Virus record (IMG/VR): IMGVR_UViG_3300023481_000016
Location: 1-20,187 of that record
Strand: one strand, 5' to 3'
From: a virus
DNA length: 20,187 nt
Every line of letters begins with the position of its first letter. Position 1 is the first letter of the stretch. The notes beneath the pieces were generated by a model. It made no database searches. It had not been told where the DNA came from and saw only the letters and a program-made list of their open reading frames with translations. The translations under genes and the position numbers were made by a program. This document shows, one piece after another, positions 4,361 to 16,297 of the stretch.

Positions 4361-4890
4361 GTCAATAGCTCCTGTTCGAGGTCCAGGACTTTGCTCGCGT
4401 AGGCCATGCCGACTTCACGGTGCCGGCCACCCGGCCCCGCGTTGTAGGCCGATATGCCCTCTGTCTCGCCGAACCTCATGATCAGATACGCGAGAAATGG
4501 CACCCCGATCCCTAGATTGATTGCTGGGTCGCACAGCACTGGTAGGTCTGGCCCCTGTAGCCCCTGCTCGCGGGCGACAGCACCCATGATCTGCATCAGT
4601 CCCCAGCTCGCCTGCTGCCCCCACCACTCAGCAGTTGAGCTTGTCCCCCGGGGGGCAGGGAAATCTGCCGGCGGTGACTCCGATGCAGACTCAAACCGGG
4701 TCAGCGGCCTGAACGGTGAACCACGGCGGATGTCCCACAGATAGTGGTATCTCGGCTCTGGCCGCCACGCATACCGCCGGCCCCCTGACTCCACCATGAT
4801 CAAGGCGCTGATCAGCGATGCACGCAGACCCGAGGAGATCGCACGCCCCTCGATCATGTCCGCATACTCAGCCAACTCTGGATGGATCAA
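4357..4890 (-). CDS. Lytic transglycosylase (endolysin candidate), SLT fold
   Basis: This 177-residue protein carries the three signatures of the soluble-lytic-transglycosylase/goose-lysozyme fold: the catalytic Glu34 in LIMVESGG, SWGLMQIMG at 95-103, and SAYNAGPGG at 147-155. Such enzymes cleave the glycan strands of peptidoglycan between MurNAc and GlcNAc. Residues 60-90 form a Pro/Ser-rich insertion between the catalytic helix and the GLMQ motif. TTG at 4890 overlaps the previous stop (TTGA) and is the likely start; ATG at residue 12 is the alternative. There is no signal peptide, so release would need a holin, and membrane protein genes flank it on both sides. It could also be a virion-borne enzyme used at infection, but the lysis context favours an endolysin. 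Confidence 0.88.
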   Translation of the reverse strand: MIHPELAEYADMIEGRAISSGLRASLISALIMVESGGRRYAWRPEPRYHYLWDIRRGSPFRPLTRFESASESPPADFPAPRGTSSTAEWWGQQASWGLMQIMGAVAREQGLQGPDLPVLCDPAINLGIGVPFLAYLIMRFGETEGISAYNAGPGGRHREVGMAYASKVLDLEQELLT

Positions 4891-5177
4891 TGGCCCAGTA
4901 TCCGCGTGCGGACATACGCCCCAACGGACGCGACAATGATGCTCCAGATGGCATATATATGACGGTCTCGGCGGCGCCTGTCATCCTCCAGCGATGTGAC
5001 CCTACCGACCATTCCCGGGTCGCCGTTCGAGCCTCTGAGCGTGCGAGCGATTGCGTGGAGCTCACTGCATATTTGCTCGTGCTGTGTGGTGTGCTGCTCG
5101 CGGTCCAGGCTCACCGCGGACACAAGAGCATCCACCTTTGCGCCCAGAGCTGCGACCGTCACACGCTCAGCCATCAT
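4887..5177 (-). CDS. Coiled-coil protein with C-terminal membrane anchor
   Basis: Two adjacent ATG codons (5177 and 5174) follow the previous stop as TGATGATG; the first gives 96 residues. Residues 1-48 are helical and heptad-like. A GDPGMVGRV turn (52-60) leads to a charged helix (LEDDRRRRDRH). A membrane segment follows at about 74-90 (IYAIWSIIVASVGAYV) with a short basic tail. This coiled coil followed by a C-terminal span resembles holin-associated proteins of the XhlA type found next to phage endolysins. It directly precedes the transglycosylase and overlaps it by four bases. It may tether, regulate or help the lysis enzyme. A holin function on its own is also possible. Confidence 0.7.
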   Translation of the reverse strand: MMAERVTVAALGAKVDALVSAVSLDREQHTTQHEQICSELHAIARTLRGSNGDPGMVGRVTSLEDDRRRRDRHIYAIWSIIVASVGAYVRTRILGH

Positions 5178-5476
5178 CACTCCGCCGGTTTGTACTGGAC
5201 CAGATCGCACGCGGCAGACACCGAGTCAGCCTCCACGTCAGCCTCACAAATGTCGATGATCGCGCCCCGCAGCTTGGCGATCTCTGCACCGAGCCGCTGC
5301 CGGTCGATCTCGATCGCTGTCACGAGCTGGCGCACCTGGACAGCCATACCGCCAGCGCTTGCAAGCGTCTCGGAGAGCTGGATCGCAACCTGCGTCGGTG
5401 ACGGTTGTTGTTGTTGTGCGCCAACAGAGACAGCGGCCATCATGATCACAGCGAGCGCAACCAGTGAGCGCCTCAT
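5177..5476 (-). CDS. Small exported protein, coiled-coil, 99 residues
   Basis: ATG at 5476 overlaps the previous stop (ATGA). Residues 1-20 form a clear Sec signal peptide: MRR, a hydrophobic core and the cleavage site VGA|Q. The mature part begins with a Gln run and then forms a long helix with heptads (VAIQLSETLASAGGMAVQV, then REL-like charged repeats to about 70). Two cysteines near the C-terminus (ICEADVEAD and AACDLVQY) could form a disulphide after export. The protein should reside in the periplasm or outside the cell. It is the third signal-peptide gene in a row. An outer-membrane spanin-like or fibre-associated role is possible, but no lipobox is present. Confidence 0.7.
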   Translation of the reverse strand: MRRSLVALAVIMMAAVSVGAQQQQPSPTQVAIQLSETLASAGGMAVQVRQLVTAIEIDRQRLGAEIAKLRGAIIDICEADVEADSVSAACDLVQYKPAE

Positions 5477-5901
5477 TGGATTGCTCCCGCCGGCAGGAGT
5501 TGATCCGGCTGGTACTGCGCAATATCACCCTTGCCCCACGCGATGAGCCGGTTCTGGAGACTCTGACCGGCACTGAAATTCATGGTGTTGATGAGCACGA
5601 TCAGGCTCCACGCCTTGTCGTTGCACACGTCGGGCGTCGTAGGGTCGGCGTCGTCGTCCACCATCGCGTCCAACGAATAGGCGGTCAGCGTCACGCTGCC
5701 AGCGCTTACCTCCAGATGTACGCGCGCGTCGCACGCGGTCGCTCCGGAGCGCGGTGCAATGCGGAAGTGGCTGATTCGGAAGTTCGTCTCTCCCGCCTCT
5801 GCCTGTTGCGGTACGGTCGTGACCAGCGTTTCCTGCGCGTAGGCAGGCACCACGATCATCGCCAGCACCAATACAGTTCCGATTGTGATTCCCCGTCTCA
5901 T
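5473..5901 (-). CDS. Exported protein of unknown function, 142 residues
   Basis: ATG at 5901 overlaps the stop of the tail-fibre-like gene (ATGA), which places the start ahead of a textbook Sec signal peptide (MRRGITIG, hydrophobic core, AYA|Q near residue 23). A longer frame from 6018 lies inside the fibre gene and is rejected. The mature part has beta-strand-rich segments (NFRISHFRIAP, VHLEVSAGSVTLTAYSLD) and an end of LINTMNFSAGQSLQNRLIAW. Two cysteines (in ATACDAR and PDVCNDK) may pair. I do not recognise a family. Its position directly after the fibre is typical of fibre assembly chaperones or attached tip proteins, but those are normally not exported. Confidence 0.7.
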   Translation of the reverse strand: MRRGITIGTVLVLAMIVVPAYAQETLVTTVPQQAEAGETNFRISHFRIAPRSGATACDARVHLEVSAGSVTLTAYSLDAMVDDDADPTTPDVCNDKAWSLIVLINTMNFSAGQSLQNRLIAWGKGDIAQYQPDQLLPAGAIQ

Positions 5902-8135
5902 TGTTGCGCCTCCCCCGTGTAGACCAGCTTCTCGCCGGTCAGTTTCTCGACCAACCTGATAACGCGCAGAATATCCACGGTGATATATTTTCCGTCTCGC
6001 TCGGAGTAGTAGGACCACGCCATCGACTCGCTGGGTCCGTCCGGCAGGCGCGTGAAATTGTGCGGCGAGAGCACCGTGATATTTGTCGCCTCGTCCCTGA
6101 CCTTCAGCTCTGAGGATGAAGCGTCATCCTGTGCGTACAGGACGACTCCGTTCGTCTCACCGCTCGTGGGTGCCGTTCCATTGAACAGCGACACCGTGTT
6201 TGTTCCGTTGTTTGCTGGCGTTCCACCAACCCCGAAAAGCACCGTATTGGCAGTCCAAACGGTATCAATTGTCCGTTCGGATACGGTGAGCATTTGCAAG
6301 CCACCCGGCCAAAACTGAATCTCGTCCCCCGCTGCGTTGTTTCGCATATAGGTGTTCTGGTCGTACCCCCAAGTGTAGAAAGGGGTTGCGCCATCAAGAC
6401 TGAGTAAGCCGTCGCCTTCCAGTCTCATCGTGCGGGCAATTGTGCCGTTATCGACCGTGTAAAAAACTATGCTGCTGTCCTCGACTGCCGCAGTCTCGTC
6501 GTCAACTAAGAACCCAATTCTCGCGTATTCAAATTGTCCAGCAGTGTCCTTATCGGCGAACAGACTAATCCAGTAGGTATCTCCGATTCCCGGAGGAGCA
6601 CGAGTGGGGCCGTGAACTCCGACAATGCGACCCGTGGCTACATCGCCGGGATCGATCACTTCGAACCGCAACTCGCCGCCTGCAGTCAAGCCCCAGTTGT
6701 CAGCGCCGATCCTGTAAACACCCGAATCGGTGTCGCTGGTGAAAAACTGGCCCGGAGATGCTGCGGTCCCGTCTGACCATGAGCCTCCGCCCGCAGCGGC
6801 CTGAAATGTAGGTGCAGCCCCCGCTCCATTGCTAGTGAGTACCTGTGCTGCTGTGCCAACTGCAACCGTTGCAGCTACGCCTGCAGCATCCCACGTGATT
6901 AGCTCCCCATCGGTGCCATTGGCGAGCCCGGCGACCGGTAGCCCGGTAGCGTTCGTGAGGACAATTGCAGACGGAGTGCCAAGTGCTGGCGTGACCAGTG
7001 TCGGAGAAGTACCAAAGACCACGGCGCCAGTACCGGTTTCTCCAGTCACCGCGGCAGCGAAATTCGCGGTAGATGGCGTCGCCAGGAATGTCGCTACTCC
7101 GGTCCCAAGACCCGACACTCCGGTAGCAATCGGCAGCCCTGTCGCGTTGGTCAGCACCCCGCTCGCTGGAGTTCCAAGTGCTGGAGTAACCAGGGTCGGA
7201 GAGCTGGCGAGCACAACCGCTCCTGTTCCAGTCTCGTCACTGATTACACCCGCAAGCTGTGCCGATGACGTGGCAGCAAACACGCTCAGGTTGTCCGCCA
7301 CCATCGCGGCCAGCGTCCCGAGGTCCGTGATGTTCGCCTCCACATGCGTATGTCCGGGCGCTGAGTAGTCGGTGCCAGACACAGCGATCGAGACGACTCC
7401 CGTCGTTGTGGTCGATTTGAGAATGCCGGTAGCCAGTGCGCCCAACGCCTGCTCTGCACTCAGCGTCGCGTTGGCCGTCTGCGTGATGTAGGTAGCGTCT
7501 GTGGGGGCTCCGCTACCAGCACCGGCCCCCGTGGTCTCGGTCCACACCGCAGCCCCAACGGTCGAGTCCAGCAGCACGTAGGCTTTGTCATTCGTCTCAT
7601 CCAGCCACACCGTGCCGACCGAATATCCATCGCCGCTATCGTCGGTCACCAGTGGCGCTGTGGTCCTGCCGCGGATTACGTGCGTCGCCCCGAGGTTCGT
7701 CTCTATCGCGATCGTCTCCAGCGCCAATTGCTGGATCAGTCCGTTGACATCTCCCAGGAACACATCATCGGTGATCGCGTGTGCTGTTGCGTTCGTGCCC
7801 CACTTGGCCCGCTCGACAACATGAAATGTAGAGCCGGTCTTGGTGTCGAACCGCATGATCTCGATGCCGGCATCACAAGCGCCGGTCGTAGCGCAGTTGC
7901 CCACGAGCACATATCCAGCAGCGGGCCATCCGGTAGTAGTCGATACCGAGATGTCGAACGGAACAGCCGCTCCAGCCGTGATCGCGACCGAGAGCGTGGT
8001 CTGTACTTGGAGCGTGTCGCCAGGATCGGGGAGCTCTGTCGTGGTGACCACCGCTCCCGGATATTGCGCCTGCGCCCATAGTGGGGTGGAAATAGCAAGC
8101 ATGAAGCAACAGCAGATGATCGCTCGTTTTATCAT
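5898..8135 (-). CDS. Tail-fibre-like protein with N-terminal signal peptide, 745 residues
   Basis: ATG at 8135 overlaps the previous stop (ATGA). Residues 1-23 look like a Sec signal peptide: MIKR, a hydrophobic stretch with three cysteines, and the cleavage site AQA|Q. The rest has tail-fibre hallmarks: low-complexity Thr/Ala/Gly-rich beta sequence, a GTDYSAPGHTH motif near 254-264, and two copies of a 35-residue repeat (301-335 and 366-400) containing SPTLVTPALGTP, which is common in fibres of environmental phages. The conserved C-terminus (690-745, with MAWSYYSERDGK and VEKLTGEKLVY) resembles fibre C-terminal trimerisation or assembly modules. Fibres bind the host receptor. A signal peptide is strange, because virion proteins assemble in the cytoplasm. 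The protein may be exported, or the hydrophobic segment may be kept. Confidence 0.8.
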   Translation of the reverse strand: MIKRAIICCCFMLAISTPLWAQAQYPGAVVTTTELPDPGDTLQVQTTLSVAITAGAAVPFDISVSTTTGWPAAGYVLVGNCATTGACDAGIEIMRFDTKTGSTFHVVERAKWGTNATAHAITDDVFLGDVNGLIQQLALETIAIETNLGATHVIRGRTTAPLVTDDSGDGYSVGTVWLDETNDKAYVLLDSTVGAAVWTETTGAGAGSGAPTDATYITQTANATLSAEQALGALATGILKSTTTTGVVSIAVSGTDYSAPGHTHVEANITDLGTLAAMVADNLSVFAATSSAQLAGVISDETGTGAVVLASSPTLVTPALGTPASGVLTNATGLPIATGVSGLGTGVATFLATPSTANFAAAVTGETGTGAVVFGTSPTLVTPALGTPSAIVLTNATGLPVAGLANGTDGELITWDAAGVAATVAVGTAAQVLTSNGAGAAPTFQAAAGGGSWSDGTAASPGQFFTSDTDSGVYRIGADNWGLTAGGELRFEVIDPGDVATGRIVGVHGPTRAPPGIGDTYWISLFADKDTAGQFEYARIGFLVDDETAAVEDSSIVFYTVDNGTIARTMRLEGDGLLSLDGATPFYTWGYDQNTYMRNNAAGDEIQFWPGGLQMLTVSERTIDTVWTANTVLFGVGGTPANNGTNTVSLFNGTAPTSGETNGVVLYAQDDASSSELKVRDEATNITVLSPHNFTRLPDGPSESMAWSYYSERDGKYITVDILRVIRLVEKLTGEKLVYTGEAQQ
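6936..7040 (-). repeat. Fibre repeat copy 2 (35 residues)
   Basis: This segment encodes residues 366-400 of the fibre-like protein (ETGTGAVVFGTSPTLVTPAL and onward to ATGLP). It matches copy 1 at nearly every position in protein, apart from short differences (VFGT for VLAS, SAIV for ASGV). Such repeats are found in beta-structured shafts. Confidence 0.75.
7131..7235 (-). repeat. Fibre repeat copy 1 (35 residues)
   Basis: This segment encodes residues 301-335 of the fibre-like protein (ETGTGAVVLASSPTLVTPAL and onward to ATGLP). It is a direct repeat of the segment at 6936-7040 and has the same orientation and frame, spaced 195 bases start to start. Gain or loss of copies by recombination would keep the frame. 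Confidence 0.75.
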
Positions 8136-8761
8136 GTCCACTCCAGCACCAGGGACCAATTACCGAGTGTTGTAGCCGCTCCGGCCGAGCTGACCAGTTG
8201 CATGGTCAGCTTGTCGTCCTTGGCGAATGTCACTGTATTGACGATGTCCTCTGCTTCTGCTGATGCTCCTCCACCCACGGTAGCTGTTAGCGCTGTGTTT
8301 GCAGCGTTTTTCCGGACCGTGAACACGATCGTTTCACCAGCGCCGACCAGTGTTTGAGTCAGGCATCGCAAGTCTGACAGCTTCCCCGCATGAGGGCATT
8401 TGATGTCGATATTGCCCTCTGTGGCAACCAGCCCAGGACCCACACTCACGAGGCTCTGATACCTCGTAATCCCTGCGACGAGTGCCTCAAACTGCGATCC
8501 CTGCACCGAGATCGAAGGCACCAACGTCGTGAACTCATACGCCGTTCCGGCAGCGTCGATGCGAGGATGTTGGAGCGCTGTGCCCTTGGCAACACGTCCA
8601 AATTGGCTCGCGCCGGTCGCAATTATCAGGTCTAGATTCGCCTGCGCTGCAATCGCTATCGCACCGGCCCGCAGCGCGTCCAGGTTGTCTCGCTTGATGT
8701 TCTGGTTCGCAGCGGTGCCAACAGCTCCGGCCGTTTCCGTCGGTGTAGCAGACCAGGCCAT
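8132..8761 (-). CDS. Putative tail tip/minor tail protein, 209 residues
   Basis: ATG at 8761 overlaps the previous stop (TGATG). The N-terminal third is helical and Ala-rich (NLDALRAGAIAIAAQANLD, 26-44). The C-terminal half is beta-rich (GETIVFTVRKNAANTALTATV, then a strand series ending in NWSLVLEW), like the tail-tip or fibre-network domains of siphophages. There is no signal peptide, unlike the gene that follows. Its place between the hub-associated genes and the fibre suggests a connector or short tip protein. The family is not recognised. Confidence 0.65.
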   Translation of the reverse strand: MAWSATPTETAGAVGTAANQNIKRDNLDALRAGAIAIAAQANLDLIIATGASQFGRVAKGTALQHPRIDAAGTAYEFTTLVPSISVQGSQFEALVAGITRYQSLVSVGPGLVATEGNIDIKCPHAGKLSDLRCLTQTLVGAGETIVFTVRKNAANTALTATVGGGASAEAEDIVNTVTFAKDDKLTMQLVSSAGAATTLGNWSLVLEWT

Positions 8762-9189
8762 CAGGCCACCTCACCGATTCTGTGTTCGAGGTTTTCCGCT
8801 TCCAGATCAGCGATGGTCTCGGGTATCGGATTCAGCCTCTCAACGCTCTCTGGCCGCGGGTCCCAGTTCCTGGTAGCTATATCCGGACGCATGAGCAGCA
8901 GTTCCACTCCTCGCTCAATCTCGTCTGGCCACACCACATTCAGATGGCGCCGGCCGCATCCGAAACACAAAGCCTCGCTCCACTCGGGATCGGCCGCAGG
9001 CTCGTTTCCACACCCGCATCGAATCTTCCAACGCCCACAGATCACGTAGGCATATGCGGGCTCGTCCGAGTCGTGTATCTCAATCCTCGCTCCCATGCGA
9101 CGCAGAGCATTTATCTTGATCTCGTGTCTGGCACGCAGCTCCTCCTCACTCCGAACCAGGTGCTGATCTCCAATCCCGAGGATGCGCAT
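8761..9189 (-). CDS. Zinc-ribbon-like tail-region protein, 142 residues
   Basis: ATG at 9189 shares a base with the hub gene's stop (TGATG). A longer frame from 9243 lies inside the hub gene and is rejected. Residues 50-80 hold a compact cysteine group: CGC at 58-60 and CFGC at 75-78, with Cys51 nearby, which looks like a zinc ribbon. The N-terminus has a charged helix (SEEELRARHEIKINALRRMG). The C-terminal end is helical and acidic (ETIADLEAENLEHRIGEV). Proteins with this layout occur between the hub and fibre genes of siphophages, but no role is known to me. It may help tip assembly rather than sit in the virion. Confidence 0.65.
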   Translation of the reverse strand: MRILGIGDQHLVRSEEELRARHEIKINALRRMGARIEIHDSDEPAYAYVICGRWKIRCGCGNEPAADPEWSEALCFGCGRRHLNVVWPDEIERGVELLLMRPDIATRNWDPRPESVERLNPIPETIADLEAENLEHRIGEVA

Positions 9190-10814
9190 CAACCGAACCC
9201 CCACCGCGCTGTGTCCCACACTCCAGCAACAGGGTCGTCCCAAATCAGAACCGCTGTTGTATCAGCGGGAGCGAGACCATAGCTGAGCTGGATCGTCGCA
9301 TCGGGCCTGATGTCGCCCGACACTGAATGGATGAATACCTCGGTAGCAGCAACCCCGGTCATGGTCTCGGACGTGACGATCTTGTCGCCCACATCAAGCG
9401 GCACGCACTTCTCGAGCACATTGGGGATCGCTGTAACTGGCGATATCTGGAGCGGTATGTTCGTGACCCCGCCCCACAAATTCGCCACGAAATCTGCAGA
9501 GTCCTGCGCCGTCTGTACGTTGCCCTGGTAGGGCATCTCGATCACAGAACCCATCGGCCGGAGACCATAGGCAGCTATGCTCGTTGCGTTCTCTGCGTGT
9601 CTCTCGACCGGAGAGAACCGTGCCAGCATCAAACCGCGAACCTGCATCCCGTCCGCACTACCAGGACCGCGTAGATATCCCGTAGCGGCGCCGTTGTTGG
9701 TGGCCGAGATAATCACCCGTGAGCCAAGCGGCGAGATCGTGACAGCGAAATCAGAGGTAACGTCAGCACCACCGCCACCGCTGACTGCATTGGCCGTGTA
9801 GTCGGTGGTTGCCACCGGCACGACCAGGCTCTTGCCGCCAACGAATGCGGCGAGTTGAGCCGGGTCTTTGTAATCGGCGCCGAACACCTGCGTCTCGCCT
9901 GCCCTGACCTCTACCTCGCCATCCAGGCTCACCAGAACGACATTGCTCGTGCCGACTGAACGGGGGAACGCTGCAACGTCAACAACATTGACCAGCCGCG
10001 AGAGATCAGACGGAACGTTTATCCCGCCTTCGTAGAGCAGCTCGCCCTCTGCGAATGTTGCCTGCACCATCGCTGTCGCACGCGCCAATCGGTTCTCGAA
10101 TCTGAGCGTCTCACCATCGGTCGCATCCCCGCGCTCGTATAGGTAACCGCGCTCGCTCTGGCAGATGTCCTGCAATACGCCGATCGCTGAAAGGTTCGTC
10201 CCGATGTCATCAAATATGAACGCATACGTGTCCTGTCCAACGTCGATCGACTGGTTGGCTGGCGTTGTCGCAACCTTCCCGATAACGTCGCTCACGCCCT
10301 GGTCTGAGCGGTACGACTCCTGGAGCGCGAGTCGCAGGTCCCGCGTCTCCGAGAGCTGGTCGAACCAACTCACAGCGGTACAGTGCGCCTCCGCTGTCCC
10401 CGTTGTTCCGGGCGTCGGCAAGATCATTTTCAGCGTGCCTAGAAAGTGATACCAGAACGTGGAACCACTCTGGATCTTGAGCCGCACTCGGGTGCCAAAC
10501 CCGAACCCCGTGCGCACATTCGGACCGCTCGGGGAATACCAGCCGCGAATGCCGCCAGAGTTTGAGGCCGCATTGTTGAACGCGAAAGTCATCACTCCGG
10601 GCTGTGCGACCACGTCTACCGGCCCATCGCCCGGAATGCCGCGCTCCCAATGCACGCCCACCCTCTGGAGCACATCGGAGCTGACATCCGTCCAGATGCC
10701 TGTAGATAGCTCCATCTCCATCACCGCAGAGCCCGGGCCCGCTGTTGCGGCGACCCAGCCGCCGAACGGAGCGGTGCCAAATACAGTCGTGCCAAACGTG
10801 CGCGGTGGTGTCAT
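9189..10814 (-). CDS. Hub/distal-tail-like minor tail protein, 541 residues
   Basis: ATG at 10814 overlaps the tape measure stop (ATGA). The N-terminus has a DVLQRVGVHWERGIPGDGP stretch (residues about 48-66) followed by GVMTFAFNNAASNSGGIRG and WYSPSGPNVR. This pattern starts tail-tip proteins that follow the tape measure in many siphophages of environmental origin. The remainder is beta-rich, as expected for a hub with oligosaccharide-binding-like domains, and ends in DTARWGFG. It probably joins the tail tube to the tip and fibres. Whether it corresponds to a distal tail protein or to the hub cannot be decided by eye; at 541 residues it could combine both roles. Confidence 0.7.
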   Translation of the reverse strand: MTPPRTFGTTVFGTAPFGGWVAATAGPGSAVMEMELSTGIWTDVSSDVLQRVGVHWERGIPGDGPVDVVAQPGVMTFAFNNAASNSGGIRGWYSPSGPNVRTGFGFGTRVRLKIQSGSTFWYHFLGTLKMILPTPGTTGTAEAHCTAVSWFDQLSETRDLRLALQESYRSDQGVSDVIGKVATTPANQSIDVGQDTYAFIFDDIGTNLSAIGVLQDICQSERGYLYERGDATDGETLRFENRLARATAMVQATFAEGELLYEGGINVPSDLSRLVNVVDVAAFPRSVGTSNVVLVSLDGEVEVRAGETQVFGADYKDPAQLAAFVGGKSLVVPVATTDYTANAVSGGGGADVTSDFAVTISPLGSRVIISATNNGAATGYLRGPGSADGMQVRGLMLARFSPVERHAENATSIAAYGLRPMGSVIEMPYQGNVQTAQDSADFVANLWGGVTNIPLQISPVTAIPNVLEKCVPLDVGDKIVTSETMTGVAATEVFIHSVSGDIRPDATIQLSYGLAPADTTAVLIWDDPVAGVWDTARWGFG

Positions 10815-13800
10815 CGACGGCCCCCGCCCGTTTGCATCGCGTGGCGGAATTGACGTCCGCGATCATTTCCCGATGCTATGATTGCTCGCTCGATACGGGC
10901 CAGGCGGTCAAGCACTGCTCCAGATCCACCACCACCAGCCGCAGCACTCGAAACCGGCGCCGGCGCGCTTGTGGACACTGGCGAGATACCCGAGATCGGC
11001 AACGCCGGAGACGGCAGCCGTGCATGTCCCCCGGGGGACATGGCCGCAGCAATCGCCGCACCCGACACCGACCACTGGCGCTGTGCTGCAACGGCTGCCG
11101 CAACGTGTCGCTCGCCGAGAGAATCGGCAACCGCTGAACCGATCCGCCCGATGTCGAGGATGGAGGAGCCGCCGACCGTGGAGTGCCGGGTATCGTCCCA
11201 AGCGTCAGCCGCGTCTCTGGCAGCCTTGACCCATGCATCGCCCACAAGCTGCGCGTTGTGGATACCGATGCGGGCCATATCCTCTTGCACCGTGCGGAAA
11301 TCTTTGACCTCTTGTCTGCGGGCTTGGCGCGCTGCCTTCTTGGCATCGCGATCGGCCTGGCGAACCAGCTTGAGATTCGCACGCACAAACTCGCGGACCT
11401 CGTCTCCCTGTAATCCAAGATCAATAGCTTGCTGCCGGAAACCAGCACGCTGCTCTTGTTCAAACGTCTTCTGGGCGTCCCTCTGAGCTTTCAGTGAGCC
11501 CTCAACAAACGCCCGTGCGGTGCTGGCCGACAACCCCATCGTCTTGGCGAGATTCTCGAAATAGGCCCGATTGTGTCGCAGCGCTGTGGTCGTCTGAATC
11601 CCAACCGAATCAGCCCATGCCTTCCAGTCGTCCCGTGCCTGTTGCAGCGCAATCTGCGCGTCTGTCATTACGTCCAGTGTGATGCCCGCCTCTGCTGCGA
11701 GAGCGATCAGAGCATCCACACCAGCGATGCCCATCGCGCGCGCGGCGTTGGCGATCAGCTCAAACTGCGCCTTGACCTCTGCGGCGCTCAACTGGCCGCT
11801 CTTGAGCCGGTTGATCATGTCGGACAGCACACCGCCCGGACCCGTGAGCACCGAGAGATCCTGCCCGAACTTCGAGAAGCTCGGGAGCTGCGCGAGAATC
11901 GCCTCACCAATCGCACTCACCGCCTGCGCGCTCGTGATCACGCTGCGGTCGAAGTCGGAGAATATGTCGCGAGTGAACCCGAGGAACTTCTGGAGATCGG
12001 CAGCGGTGGAGATCCCGACTTCCTCGATCACTGCCGCTAGCGACTGCCGGAACGCGGCCCCGAAGTCGCGCCCTAGAGTGTCGCCCAGATCCTGGATCTG
12101 TTGTGTTAGCGCCTTCGAGAGCGACAGCCCGAACTGCTTGCTGATCTCCTTGGCGGCGTTTGTCTTTCCGAACAGCTTGCCGATGAAAGAAAGCGCCTTA
12201 CCAATAAATGAGATGATCTTGCTCAGCGCGGCCTGGATGATCGACGACAGCCCACCCGAGATGATCTGCCCGAACCCCTCGATGATGCCTTTGCCGAGAT
12301 TGTTGAAGGCCCCAAGCAGGCCCTTGCCGCCAGTGATGCCGGCAATGATGGCCTTGATGGAGCTGCCAAACCCTGAGAACAGCTTGCTGAGGAAGCTCGT
12401 GGTCGCGATCAGCGCAACGTGTTCGTCAACCAGCGAGGCTTCCGCCTGGGCCTGCCTGCCAAGATCGTCGATGATTCCGGGAAGCTGGCCGCCGAACTTG
12501 TCCAGCCCTTCGGAAATCGTCTTTTGGCCTGCCAGCCGCGCCCTCTGCGCATCGGCGACGGCGTTGATTCCGAGCACCCACGAGGGATAGAGAGAGACGA
12601 GAGTCTCGACCCGTGGAACAGTTTCTGCGAGTGCAGATCCGAGCTTGACCGTGGCGGCAGCATCATCCTTGAGACCAGCAGCTACCTTGGGGAGTTCAGG
12701 TGCGAGCCTCTTTACTCCGCCACCTAGCTTGTTGATACGGTCGATTACAGGCGCCGCAACCTCAGCGTTTTCTCTCATCTTTGCAGTGAGATTCAAGAAC
12801 GCACGCGCTGACGCTCCCATTGGCCCCGGAAGGAACGCTACTTTCTCTGCCATCCGTGCGAGAAAACCAATCAGCTTGATTGAATCCTTGCGGACCTCTT
12901 CCATCGCAGACCGGAATCTCTCGAACTGACCGAGCACAAAATTCTTGATCGTGCTTGCGACAAATTTCAGCGCGTCCCGAACCGGCTTGATGCTCAACAG
13001 CAAGGCACCAAGTAGAGCAATCCACCCCACCGGGCCGGACAGAATCCCAATCACCGCGCCGATTGCAGGGAGTAACGCCCCAACAGCAGTCGCCATCGCG
13101 CCAAGAACGATCAGAACGGGGCCAATAGCTGCACCGACAGCAGCTATCACAATCGCCCATTTCTTGGTCGCTGGATCTGCGTCCTTGAGCTTTTGCAGCC
13201 ATTCCTTCATCTGGGCAAGCATTGGGCGCACAACGGGGATCAGGATTTTCCCGATCATCTCTCCAACAGACCGGATGTCGCGGGCGAGGAATTTCATCAG
13301 GTTCGCCGTGGAATCTGCCGTGCGAGCCGCGTCCCCCATGGCGTCGGTACTGTCCTTCTGGATCGCCAACAGCACCGCCTGAGCCCGCGATGTTGAGTCC
13401 ATCTCCTGCCCTGCCTTGATGAGTCCAGCACTGAGAGCAATCGCCTTCAATGCGGCTTCGCGAGTGTCCACGCCGAACCGCCGCATGGGTTCACTCGACC
13501 CCGCTAGAGCCGACTGCATCGCGAGCAGAACGTCCTTGGTGCCGACGTTGTTGAATGACCCGAGATCGCTAGCCAGCTTGACCATTTCAAGCGACATATC
13601 AGCGGCCTTATCACGAGCCAGGCCCATCGGAACCAGCATGTCTTGCGTCCCAGCGGACAGGCTCTCCATTTGCGACCGGGTCAGCGGAATAGTTGACGTC
13701 AAACGCTGCAATTCAGCCCGAACACGGGACGCAGCCGGACCCATCACCACGTCGAACTTGTTGCCGGCCTCCTCGGCATCGGATGCCATCTTGAGCGCCG

Positions 13801-13987
13801 CAACGCCAACACCGACGAGCGGAAGCGTGACCCTGGTAGCGAATTTCTTTCCTGTCGTGGACAACCGGCGCCCGACGTCCTCGAACTTCTTTCCCGTGGT
13901 CGCGAATTGCTTCTGAGCACGCAGTAGCGCTGGCCCCATCAAATCCTGGAGCTTCAATACAGCCACCAGCGTTCCGACGTTGACCAC
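10811..13987 (-). CDS. Tail tape measure protein, 1058 residues
   Basis: Translation starts at GTG (13987) directly after the TAG stop of the preceding frame. Residues 65-260 match the TP901-type tape measure core: Gln-rich helices, then GDAARTADSTANLMKFLARD (219-238) and IGKILIPVVRPML. Hydrophobic segments at about 278-333 and 545-606 fit those that enter the host membrane during DNA ejection. Long helical, coiled-coil-prone sequence follows up to about 960, and the end is Pro/Ser/Gly-rich. The protein sets tail length. At about 0.15 nm per residue, 1058 residues would give a tail near 150 nm (family rule, inference). Its placement between the chaperone frames and the hub gene is the standard order. 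Confidence 0.93.
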   Translation of the reverse strand: MVNVGTLVAVLKLQDLMGPALLRAQKQFATTGKKFEDVGRRLSTTGKKFATRVTLPLVGVGVAALKMASDAEEAGNKFDVVMGPAASRVRAELQRLTSTIPLTRSQMESLSAGTQDMLVPMGLARDKAADMSLEMVKLASDLGSFNNVGTKDVLLAMQSALAGSSEPMRRFGVDTREAALKAIALSAGLIKAGQEMDSTSRAQAVLLAIQKDSTDAMGDAARTADSTANLMKFLARDIRSVGEMIGKILIPVVRPMLAQMKEWLQKLKDADPATKKWAIVIAAVGAAIGPVLIVLGAMATAVGALLPAIGAVIGILSGPVGWIALLGALLLSIKPVRDALKFVASTIKNFVLGQFERFRSAMEEVRKDSIKLIGFLARMAEKVAFLPGPMGASARAFLNLTAKMRENAEVAAPVIDRINKLGGGVKRLAPELPKVAAGLKDDAAATVKLGSALAETVPRVETLVSLYPSWVLGINAVADAQRARLAGQKTISEGLDKFGGQLPGIIDDLGRQAQAEASLVDEHVALIATTSFLSKLFSGFGSSIKAIIAGITGGKGLLGAFNNLGKGIIEGFGQIISGGLSSIIQAALSKIISFIGKALSFIGKLFGKTNAAKEISKQFGLSLSKALTQQIQDLGDTLGRDFGAAFRQSLAAVIEEVGISTAADLQKFLGFTRDIFSDFDRSVITSAQAVSAIGEAILAQLPSFSKFGQDLSVLTGPGGVLSDMINRLKSGQLSAAEVKAQFELIANAARAMGIAGVDALIALAAEAGITLDVMTDAQIALQQARDDWKAWADSVGIQTTTALRHNRAYFENLAKTMGLSASTARAFVEGSLKAQRDAQKTFEQEQRAGFRQQAIDLGLQGDEVREFVRANLKLVRQADRDAKKAARQARRQEVKDFRTVQEDMARIGIHNAQLVGDAWVKAARDAADAWDDTRHSTVGGSSILDIGRIGSAVADSLGERHVAAAVAAQRQWSVSGAAIAAAMSPGGHARLPSPALPISGISPVSTSAPAPVSSAAAGGGGSGAVLDRLARIERAIIASGNDRGRQFRHAMQTGGGRR

Positions 13988-14308
13988 CTAATCGCCCTCT
14001 CGCTCCGCCGCCGCGCGCCGCTCGCGCTCGATCGCCATGTCGATGTCCCGAACCCGCTTCACCATTGGAGCCTGCTTGTCCTTGAGCTCGATATTGCGAT
14101 CGTTGTAGATCCCGTAAGCCTCGGCATATCGCCTTAGCAGCATGATCTGTTCACCCAACCGCTCCGGGTCGTTCTCCATCTCCCACTTCGCCCAAAGCGG
14201 CGTGCATCCATACTCCCGTGCGTATTCCCCGACGCCCCACAACCACGCTGTCTGTGGGTCCGTCCACTCCCCACCACCCAGCGCGACATGGAACGCCCTT
14301 AGCCTTCC
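13988..14308 (-). CDS. Tail assembly chaperone T extension, probably made by -1 frameshift
   Basis: This frame is open from 14425 to the stop at 13988 but has no ATG, GTG or TTG before TTG at 14242. That TTG falls inside what looks like a conserved stretch (AFHVALGGGEW, DPQTAWLWGVGEYAREYG). It lies in the -1 phase of the upstream chaperone gene, whose stop is at 14299. These facts match the G/GT arrangement of siphophages, where a fraction of ribosomes slip and make a fusion that binds the tape measure and tail tube. Slippage at the G-run near 14310 would give a fusion of about 246 residues. An independent start at TTG 14242 (84 residues) is the alternative. Confidence 0.75.
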   Translation of the reverse strand, partial: GRLRAFHVALGGGEWTDPQTAWLWGVGEYAREYGCTPLWAKWEMENDPERLGEQIMLLRRYAEAYGIYNDRNIELKDKQAPMVKRVRDIDMAIERERRAAAEREGD

Positions 14309-14727
14309 CCCTCCTGTTCCTCGTCCAGCGGCTTGACCGAGTCGATGATGGTCTGCGCCATGAACGTCGCCGTCTGCTCGTCGAGCTCGTTGACGTTCTC
14401 GTCGTTGACATCGGCCGGCTTGCCATCAGCTCCAGAGAAGCTCCAAGCCCTCACGCACGAGCGCAGCAACACACCCATGTCGAAGCTCGAGAGCGCGTAT
14501 CGTTCTGCCTCCAGAACTTGCTCGACGGCTTTCTTGCCGCCCTTGTCAGCGGCTGCGAGAAGCGCGTCCATCATCTCTGGTCCGATCGCCTTCATATCAT
14601 CGAAGCCCTCGCGCTGAACGGCCTTCTTCGCCTTCTTGAGGCGCAGCCATGACGGCTTGATGAACTCGAACCAATCCCCATCAGAATGGGGAATCTCGAC
14701 CCTGATCGGGTCTGCGATCACCAGCAT
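14299..14727 (-). CDS. Tail assembly chaperone, G-like
   Basis: ATG at 14727 has GGGAGG five bases upstream. The longer frame from 14763 is rejected because its start lies before this ribosome site. The 142-residue protein is helical and acidic at its C-terminus (NELDEQTATFMAQ, then LDEEQEGEG), with a WFEFIKPSWLRLKKAKKAV segment near the N-terminus (residues 17-36). Position just before the tape measure and the overlapping -1 frame identify it as the G-like chaperone, which keeps the tape measure soluble until the tube polymerises around it. The 65 bases before it, down to the tail tube stop at 14793, hold no gene. Confidence 0.8.
   Translation of the reverse strand: MLVIADPIRVEIPHSDGDWFEFIKPSWLRLKKAKKAVQREGFDDMKAIGPEMMDALLAAADKGGKKAVEQVLEAERYALSSFDMGVLLRSCVRAWSFSGADGKPADVNDENVNELDEQTATFMAQTIIDSVKPLDEEQEGEG
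14302..14313 (-). other. Candidate -1 frameshift site
   Basis: The last in-frame codons of the first chaperone are GAG-GGG-GAA-GGC before TAA. The run of five G allows a Gly-tRNA on GGG to re-pair one base back. The A-site step (GAA to GGA) would be imperfect, so it is not a canonical X-XXY-YYZ heptamer. Purine-rich Shine-Dalgarno-like sequence directly upstream (GAGGAACAGGAG) could stimulate slippage. No better heptamer is seen in the overlap 14302-14425. Confidence 0.5.
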
Positions 14728-14792
14728 GTTTTCCTCCCTTGTTGCTGGCACCGGGACGAGCACAGCGCCCGCCCCGGCTACCAGATCAGCCT

Positions 14793-15227
14793 CTAGCTCC
14801 AGACAGCCGCGCCAGTCGCCACGAGCTCGGACTCGAATCGCTGGATGTTGTCCGTGCTCGCGATCGCCTTGTAACGAGTCAGGTGGTACTTGCGAGTCCA
14901 GGTCTTGGAGTCGCCAAACACCAGCACGAGCTCGCGCCCAACACTCGCGGGCAGCTTGTCGGCCGCCGCGATCTGAAACATCGCATGTGACCCCGTGGTC
15001 GCGGTCGTGTCGAAGTACCCGCTGAGCGTCAGGTTCGGCGAGTCGGTGATCCCGACAGGCACACGCGAGCGCGCGCTATCGCCCAGAGCGGTCGTCTCGT
15101 CCATCTCCTGGATGTCCTCAGCCGAGATGCCGTTGAGCAGGAATCCGTGAATGTTGCGCGACGTCCCGCCAGGTGAATCCTGGAGGGTGCAGGTGACTGA
15201 ACTCGGACTCTGTTTGCCTGGCGCCAT
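14793..15227 (-). CDS. Second tail tube-like protein, 144 residues
   Basis: ATG at 15227 has AGGAG nine bases upstream. The N-terminus MAPGKQSPS is nearly identical to that of the gene upstream (MAAGKQSPS), and a second shared region reads EIxExxETTxxGxxARxRxPxGIT (about 36-60). The two are therefore paralogs. This one lacks the long middle and C-terminal domains of its neighbour and resembles a single-domain tail tube subunit. It could be the main tube protein, with the longer one decorating it or lining one end, or the reverse. It has its own leader (15228-15313), so it is probably made at its own level. Confidence 0.75.
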   Translation of the reverse strand: MAPGKQSPSSVTCTLQDSPGGTSRNIHGFLLNGISAEDIQEMDETTALGDSARSRVPVGITDSPNLTLSGYFDTTATTGSHAMFQIAAADKLPASVGRELVLVFGDSKTWTRKYHLTRYKAIASTDNIQRFESELVATGAAVWS

Positions 15228-15240
15228 AATGTTTTCTCCT

Positions 15241-15254
15241 GCCCGCTGACGGGC
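15241..15254 (-). promoter_or_regulatory. Hairpin in the leader of the second tail tube gene
   Basis: GCCCG and CGGGC pair around the loop CTGA, ending immediately before the AGGAG ribosome site of the 144-residue tail tube gene. The rest of the 86-base gap 15228-15313 holds a weaker inverted repeat (TTGTG with CACAA) and an extra GGAG, but no T-run that would make a terminator. The placement mirrors the hairpin before the holin-like gene. Confidence 0.4.
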
Positions 15255-15313
15255 TGTTATCTCCTAGTTGCGGGCACTCGTTGTGTTATTGCCACAATGA
15301 TCTGGGCGCACGA

Positions 15314-16297
15314 TCAACTCCTCGCAAATGCGATCAGTGAGGTGAGCGAACCCGATCCCGTGAGCGTGCCGGTCACGCTGAGGTAGCGGTCGATGTCGCC
15401 GGCCACCGTGACCCGCTCCGCGAACGGGGCGCTGACGTTATCGGCGAAGCTGAGAACATCGGCGAACGAAATATCGTCAGTGCTGTCGCGGATCTTGCCG
15501 ACGAAGTTGGTGAACCCCGACGCAGCCGTGACTTGCAGGTACCCGACCCCGCCGCCGGCCGAGTCCGCACGCACGAACGAGCCGCCCGTACCGCCCACCG
15601 TCACGTTCACCGGGATCGTGAACGTGGTAGTGGTCACGACCGTCGCGACCTGCTCGGCGTTGATGCTCGGCGTCGCCCCGCTATGCCCCGATATCAGCAC
15701 CTTGTCGCCAGTGGTCAGACCGTGCGCCACGGTCGTTGTAATCACTGACGGGTTGGCAACCGACGAGCTTGTGATCGGGATCGCGATCTGCGAGATATCG
15801 GCCGTGTAGTCGAAGCTCGATGCCTCGGTGTTCCAGGTCGCCGTCTTGGCTGCGAGCGGTTGCAGGATGATCGCCGGGTCGTGATTCCCATTCATCGCGT
15901 ATTCAACATCGACCTTTTGCAGGTCGTCGTCGCTACCGATCACCTTGTAGCGGTTGTTGTACCCGCCCTCGAAACACTGGATCGGAGCGTTCTCTTCGTT
16001 GCCGGCGAAGCCCGCGCACACTATCCGCACGTTCGACGTTGGCGATGACCCGAGTTTTGTTGCCAGCGCGTCATGGATCGAGTTGGTTGCGGTGTCCCAG
16101 AACGCGCCCTGTTGCTCAAGCGTCACGCTCGTGATGCCCTTGGGTGCCCGTGTGCGCGCAGCCATCCCGACGCCCGTGGTCTCGGAAATCTCGCTGATCT
16201 CTTCGAACGACAGCGGGCTCGTGCCGGTAGAGGCCAGCATGTTGTAGCCGTCAACCAGCAGTTGCGCGCCGGATGGGCTCTGTTTACCTGCTGCCAT
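15314..16297 (-). CDS. Major tail tube protein with extra beta domains, 327 residues
   Basis: ATG at 16297 follows GAGGTG five bases upstream. Residues 1-150 form the tube domain and share the MAxGKQSPS start and the SEISETTGVGMAARTRAPKG region with the next gene. Residues about 171-243 hold a module with ANPSVITTTVAHGLTTGD and TTTTFTIPVNVT, a beta insertion common in phage structural proteins. Residues about 250-327 form another beta domain ending in LIAFARS. The tube polymerises below the neck and carries DNA during ejection; extra domains would decorate the outside of the tail. Length is large for a tube protein, owing to these modules. Confidence 0.85.
   Translation of the reverse strand: MAAGKQSPSGAQLLVDGYNMLASTGTSPLSFEEISEISETTGVGMAARTRAPKGITSVTLEQQGAFWDTATNSIHDALATKLGSSPTSNVRIVCAGFAGNEENAPIQCFEGGYNNRYKVIGSDDDLQKVDVEYAMNGNHDPAIILQPLAAKTATWNTEASSFDYTADISQIAIPITSSSVANPSVITTTVAHGLTTGDKVLISGHSGATPSINAEQVATVVTTTTFTIPVNVTVGGTGGSFVRADSAGGGVGYLQVTAASGFTNFVGKIRDSTDDISFADVLSFADNVSAPFAERVTVAGDIDRYLSVTGTLTGSGSLTSLIAFARS

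Follow-up and report, generated by a model that had tools for sequence, protein, structure and literature searches.

In an uncultured bacterial virus, three consecutive genes, the first of which encodes a tail-fibre-like protein, begin with signal peptides (SPs) of the Sec type, and we hold with moderate confidence that they constitute an exported tail-fibre module, supplying late tail parts that are joined to the particle at lysis. The cytoplasm is assumed to be where the virion parts of tailed phages assemble, and the sequence patterns described here suggest that in some of these phages the tail is completed outside it. Judging from these patterns, the SPs are real features that occur in sets and that, elsewhere, have been added to tail proteins working without an SP in relatives; export and cleavage of the SP proteins are predicted, export with good support, and the fibre would belong to the virion, joining it at or after the breach of the inner membrane.

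The whole stretch of DNA analysed, hereafter the window, is a 20,187-bp IMG/VR record with 30 genes and a GC content of ~60% that is even along its length. A siphophage-type gene order is found on its − strand, namely adaptor Ad1, connector, major tail protein, tape measure, a 541-aa tail protein, proteins of 160 and 209 aa, the fibre, proteins of 142, 99 and 96 aa, and a transglycosylase. The SP module starts exactly at the fibre gene, 3' of all tube and tip genes, which carry no SP; there is no nozzle in the window. The fibre-like gene (5898–8135, − strand; 745 aa) opens with an SP of residues 1–23 (8067–8135, − strand; MIKRAIICCCFMLAISTPLWAQA↓Q, the arrow marking the predicted cleavage site; score 8.4), the 142-aa gene (5473–5901, − strand) with one of residues 1–22 (5836–5901, − strand; ..VVPAYA↓Q; score 8.7), and the 99-aa gene (5177–5476, − strand) with one of residues 1–20 (5417–5476, − strand; ..VSVGA↓Q; score 7.5). 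The calls were made with a rule-based scorer, not SignalP, and controlled by shuffling residues 2–36 of each protein 1000 times; an equally high score was reached by none of the 1000 shuffles for the fibre and the 142-aa protein and by one of 1000 for the 99-aa protein. In all three, a basic n-region, an h-region and an AXA-type site stand at a true N-terminus, as is characteristic of Sec/signal peptidase I substrates. The scorer flags four of the 30 window genes, and the only one besides these three encodes a trypsin-like protease (547–1236, − strand; PF13365, 2e-13; PHROG 9683; score 8.2). Coordinates, scores and shuffles confirm the preliminary description of this DNA, which had reported three consecutive, overlapping genes with SPs ending in AQA↓Q, AYA↓Q and VGA↓Q.

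The three genes are translationally coupled, each start overlapping the preceding gene by ATGA, and Shine-Dalgarno-like sequences (GGAG, GGAGG or GGGAG) stand before their starts. Within the first 75 codons of the fibre gene, the only alternative start outside the SP is GTG-29, which has a GGGAG merely 2 nt away. The ATGA overlap and the Shine-Dalgarno-like sequence bear out the earlier assertion that the fibre start is genuine. We consider it very improbable that the SPs are an artefact of hydrophobic starts arisen by chance or of misassigned start codons: the calls do rest on a rule-based scorer, and the source is a 20-kb IMG/VR contig of uncertain completeness, but the overlap-fixed starts with their Shine-Dalgarno-like sequences, the shuffle and run statistics, the even GC content and the recurrence of the arrangement in independent contigs, described below, all speak against such an origin.

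The designation of the 745-aa protein as tail-fibre-like holds: its central repeats match many phage fibres and PHROG 33012, the repeat match being the only one that Pfam and PHROG gave, and the gene sits after the tail-tip genes. The same repeats (TNATGLPVAGL/DGELITWDAAG/QVLTSNGAGAAPTFQA) occur in known repeat-containing tail fibres, such as those of L004, L008 and L085, whose genes occupy the same place after the tape measure and tail-tip genes. As a side observation, a contig of a Hyphomicrobiales MAG (L103, 836–1057) carries a separate 73-aa ORF that corresponds to the C-terminal residues 655–742 of the fibre at 60% identity. The 142-aa and 99-aa proteins gave no Pfam or PHROG match, and no homologue of either was found. 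No useful relatives of the fibre N-terminus, the 142-aa protein or the 541-aa tail protein came out of the scans, which covered cultured phages as well; scanning with a motif of the fibre's N-terminal domain gave zero matches, and these searches found no N-terminal homologue of the window's proteins for comparing versions with and without an SP. The AlphaFold model of the 142-aa protein is poor (pLDDT 55), too poor for a structure search, and a check for an outer-membrane beta-barrel of the Lom type gave no Pfam match, with the same poor model. For the VEMSAAEK small-protein family, a DNA pattern found nine contigs, in two of which an SP-less gene with the motif lies after a likely fibre gene.

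Fibres of this kind normally lack SPs, as had been presumed at the outset. Among 80 IMG/VR loci of fibre relatives, found via the fibre repeats, 78 have a fibre without an SP, unlike that of the window, and two, L010 and L075, have a fibre with one. Both of the latter lie in series of SP genes: L010, on the same contig as L084, has a run of five consecutive SP genes, and L075 a run of four, in which the fibre is accompanied by two further SP genes and by a short ORF that is lipoprotein-like. With one threshold applied throughout, runs of at least three SP genes were present in 2/2 SP-fibre loci versus 0/78 others. Comparable phage loci have SP-like genes at a base rate of 3.8%, and label shuffling gave a mean of 0.03 loci with a run of at least three per 80 loci, so three SP genes in a row are not due to chance. 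Six consecutive SP-flagged genes, including those for a 1149-aa fibre and a Laminin-G-like lectin, are found in L118, which was located through a small protein shared with L075 and which, having been reached through an SP gene, provides no independent frequency count. The window module has the arrangement that recurs in L084, L075 and L118, namely an SP fibre within a run of at least three SP genes, and this recurrence in unrelated phages sustains the earlier idea of an exported-type module. In a literature search of partial coverage, no tail-fibre or nozzle module with SPs was found to have been described. We also observed that, in L118, the structural genes are followed by several glycosyltransferase-like and methyltransferase-like genes (12670–16006).

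Comparison of the podophages L084 and L086 with their SP-less relatives indicates, at the level of sequence, that an N-terminal SP was gained by several virion tail proteins of one phage and not by the adaptor-like gene that precedes them. The SP run of the podophage L084 is flanked by this adaptor-like gene, which has no SP, and by a 523-aa gene. Within the run, a 548-aa SP protein has the nozzle fold (P22 gp10, E=2e-13; also Pa223 tail, Sf6 gp8 and T7 gp12), as found in a search that used a model of pLDDT 62. Only L084 and L086 of the 11 nozzle family members compared carry an SP, and the other nine lack one. Most SP-less relatives start with MGYxGxT or a sequence like it, which lines up with the residues directly behind the cleavage sites of L084 and L086 (...AFA↓QYIGKTF and ...ANA↓QYEGQTF), so that the SP stands exactly before the conserved N-terminus. 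In the nozzle tree, L084 and L086 form one clade, the sister of which is L085, without an SP; their mature parts are 72% identical and their SPs differ in both length and sequence, as expected when SP character alone is selected. The same relationship is seen in the L084 fibre (...TAYG↓VYPYTNTYT), which matches the L085 fibre (MGYPYSMTYT) from just after the cleavage site, and in a 287-aa SP protein of L084, which matches L078 (MAYNIKDYFTEV) from its SP-less start and is also matched by SP-less cyanophage proteins, some of them annotated as tail fibre. Because SP-less homologues of the nozzle, the fibre and the 287-aa protein begin at the mature N-terminus, we infer that the SPs were gained. 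No internal start is present at the mature N-terminus in the SP-bearing genes of L084 and L086, which, together with two diverged SPs on one homologous protein, argues for SP gain and not for a wrong start. Homologues starting after the hydrophobic segment had been regarded in the preliminary description as evidence against its reading; they do exist in these other families, but they imply no wrong start.

Although L084 and L086 are of another phage type than the window, their nozzle is, like the window module, a late tail protein in a run of SP genes that includes a fibre. In the P22 pathway, nozzle and spikes join after gp4, and in vitro, spikes can be added to finished particles. As the adaptor-like gene before the L084 run lacks an SP, the SP boundary would follow the late part of P22 tail assembly.

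A different reading, which we regard as unlikely though deserving of weight, is that infected or lysogenic cells would send all three window proteins into the periplasm or onto the cell surface, for example to mask receptors against superinfection or to change adhesion, while the virion fibre is the 209-aa protein. The gene for this candidate cytoplasmic virion fibre (8132–8761, − strand) adjoins the SP module directly upstream of the fibre gene; it encodes no SP and has a weak match to a tail-fibre C-terminus (PHROG 7049, phrog_7049; E=0.01), and the virion may therefore be able to do without the exported fibre. Porphyromonas phages encode SP proteins of unknown function that follow the Q-rule (PMC10367356), and lambda Lom, an SP protein encoded among tail genes, offers a distant precedent (PMC12309495), although it is an outer-membrane beta-barrel and a single gene, as opposed to the window's fibre and run. 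Secretion away from the virion is, however, made less likely by the SP on the L084/L086 nozzle, an essential virion part, and by the SP genes of these phages replacing virion genes of sister phages in both position and homology; in addition, the window genes lie within a late tail-to-lysis operon. We know of no function of the nozzle outside the virion. A pure decoy, receptor-blocking or envelope-modifying role is less favoured for the same reason, namely that the tail nozzle of L084 and L086 also carries an SP.

Under the preferred reading of late joining at lysis, the fibre and its two small partners would be made during infection with cleavable Sec SPs, cross the inner membrane and lose the SP; folding would take place in the periplasm, with disulphides able to form between the paired cysteines, while heads and tail tubes would be built in the cytoplasm without these proteins. 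Breach of the inner membrane at lysis would bring the particles together with the periplasmic fibres, which would bind the tail tip last. Predicted cleavage would leave an N-terminus nearly as in SP-less homologues. The mature part of the fibre contains Cys 81 and Cys 87, and those of the 142-aa and 99-aa proteins two cysteines each. Even Cys counts are commoner in SP proteins (p=0.02, in a small sample that includes one truncated gene), which is modest support for oxidative folding. Other observations weigh against this reading. L104, a contig in a Phycisphaerales MAG, has a window-like gene order (5726–13980) and weak similarity to the window in the tape measure, the transglycosylase and a small downstream gene, and the fibre of this syntenic relative has no SP, which counts against an export module; a search of 300 further Phycisphaerales genomes yielded weak transglycosylase matches and nothing else. 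Moreover, if L084 exports its nozzle, it is not obvious what keeps the packaged DNA in place before lysis.

The three mature parts look soluble, with no clear transmembrane stretch in any of them (best 19-residue mean hydropathy 1.0–1.4). There are two further alternatives, both of low probability. In the first, which we judge improbable, uncleaved N-termini would anchor the tail proteins in the inner membrane for the building of tails or the release of virions there, or would aid entry into the membrane of the next host; the hydrophobic start of every SP gene is indeed long enough to span a membrane, yet good AXA sites stand right behind short h-regions, and homologues begin exactly after the site, such that the segment, if kept, would extend an N-terminus that is otherwise conserved. 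The earlier suggestion that the hydrophobic segment is kept in the virion is not supported, in view of the good cleavage sites and of mature N-termini that match Met-start homologues; the original interpretation is borne out in part, in its genuine start, its unusual SP and its module of exported type. In the second, slightly less probable still, the 99-aa protein, perhaps together with the 142-aa one, would belong to the lysis cassette that follows, as a periplasmic spanin-like protein or lysis helper, leaving the fibre as the sole exported tail protein. The 99-aa gene overlaps the gene for the 96-aa protein, which has a hydrophobic C-terminal segment and is followed by the transglycosylase, but its mature part has no transmembrane anchor and no lipobox, and the SP fibres of L084, L075 and L118 are followed by small SP genes with no adjoining lysis gene recognised. 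When the three proteins were checked for the lipobox or anchor of spanins and phage lipoproteins, there was no Cys at +1 and no later transmembrane segment, and the SPs were of the cleavable type. The 96-aa protein itself (4887–5177, − strand), lying between the SP module and the transglycosylase, is similar in kind to the product of a 113-aa gene of L104 and is a possible lysis part.

Filamentous phage coat proteins are Sec-exported, membrane-anchored and extruded without lysis. They stay in the membrane, whereas the window proteins look soluble and come from a tailed, lysing phage; pIII and pVIII are virion proteins exported by Sec before assembly (PMC4823517). Late phage proteins on the Sec route also include SAR endolysins and spanins (PMC3765740), from which the three window proteins differ in having no lysozyme, lipobox or membrane anchor.

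More tentatively, and with somewhat less confidence than we place in the window module itself, we propose that in some tailed phages of several lineages the head and core would be cytoplasmic, while fibres, small partners and even the nozzle would be Sec-exported and joined at lysis, a trait that may have been gained one gene at a time, through SPs added to virion proteins that are otherwise unaltered. The recurring SP tail genes, with SP-less homologues as a built-in control, make extracytoplasmic tail assembly directly testable and bear on the ways in which receptor-binding proteins escape premature binding or depend on oxidative folding. In annotation, a 'fibre' that has an SP is not necessarily a start error, and phage genomes can be used to read host export rules.

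With respect to the host, Gln directly follows the cleavage site in all three SPs of the module, as the Gln-rule has it, compared with five of the 41 predicted SPs of the comparison loci; the window protease was left out of this count because A↓A and A↓Q tie as its best site. In Bacteroidota, Gln at +1 is the rule, with a mean of 71% (PMC5837995). The three instances in the window favour true signal-peptidase substrates of a Gln-favouring host and point to Bacteroidota-like hosts, though not exclusively: one Phycisphaerales genome has Gln at +1 in 7/28 strong SP predictions, so the rule is not exclusive to Bacteroidota. In the Phycisphaerales genomes G062 and G027, the commonest residue after predicted cleavage sites is Gln, and from these Planctomycetota samples the Gln-rule may extend in part beyond Bacteroidota.
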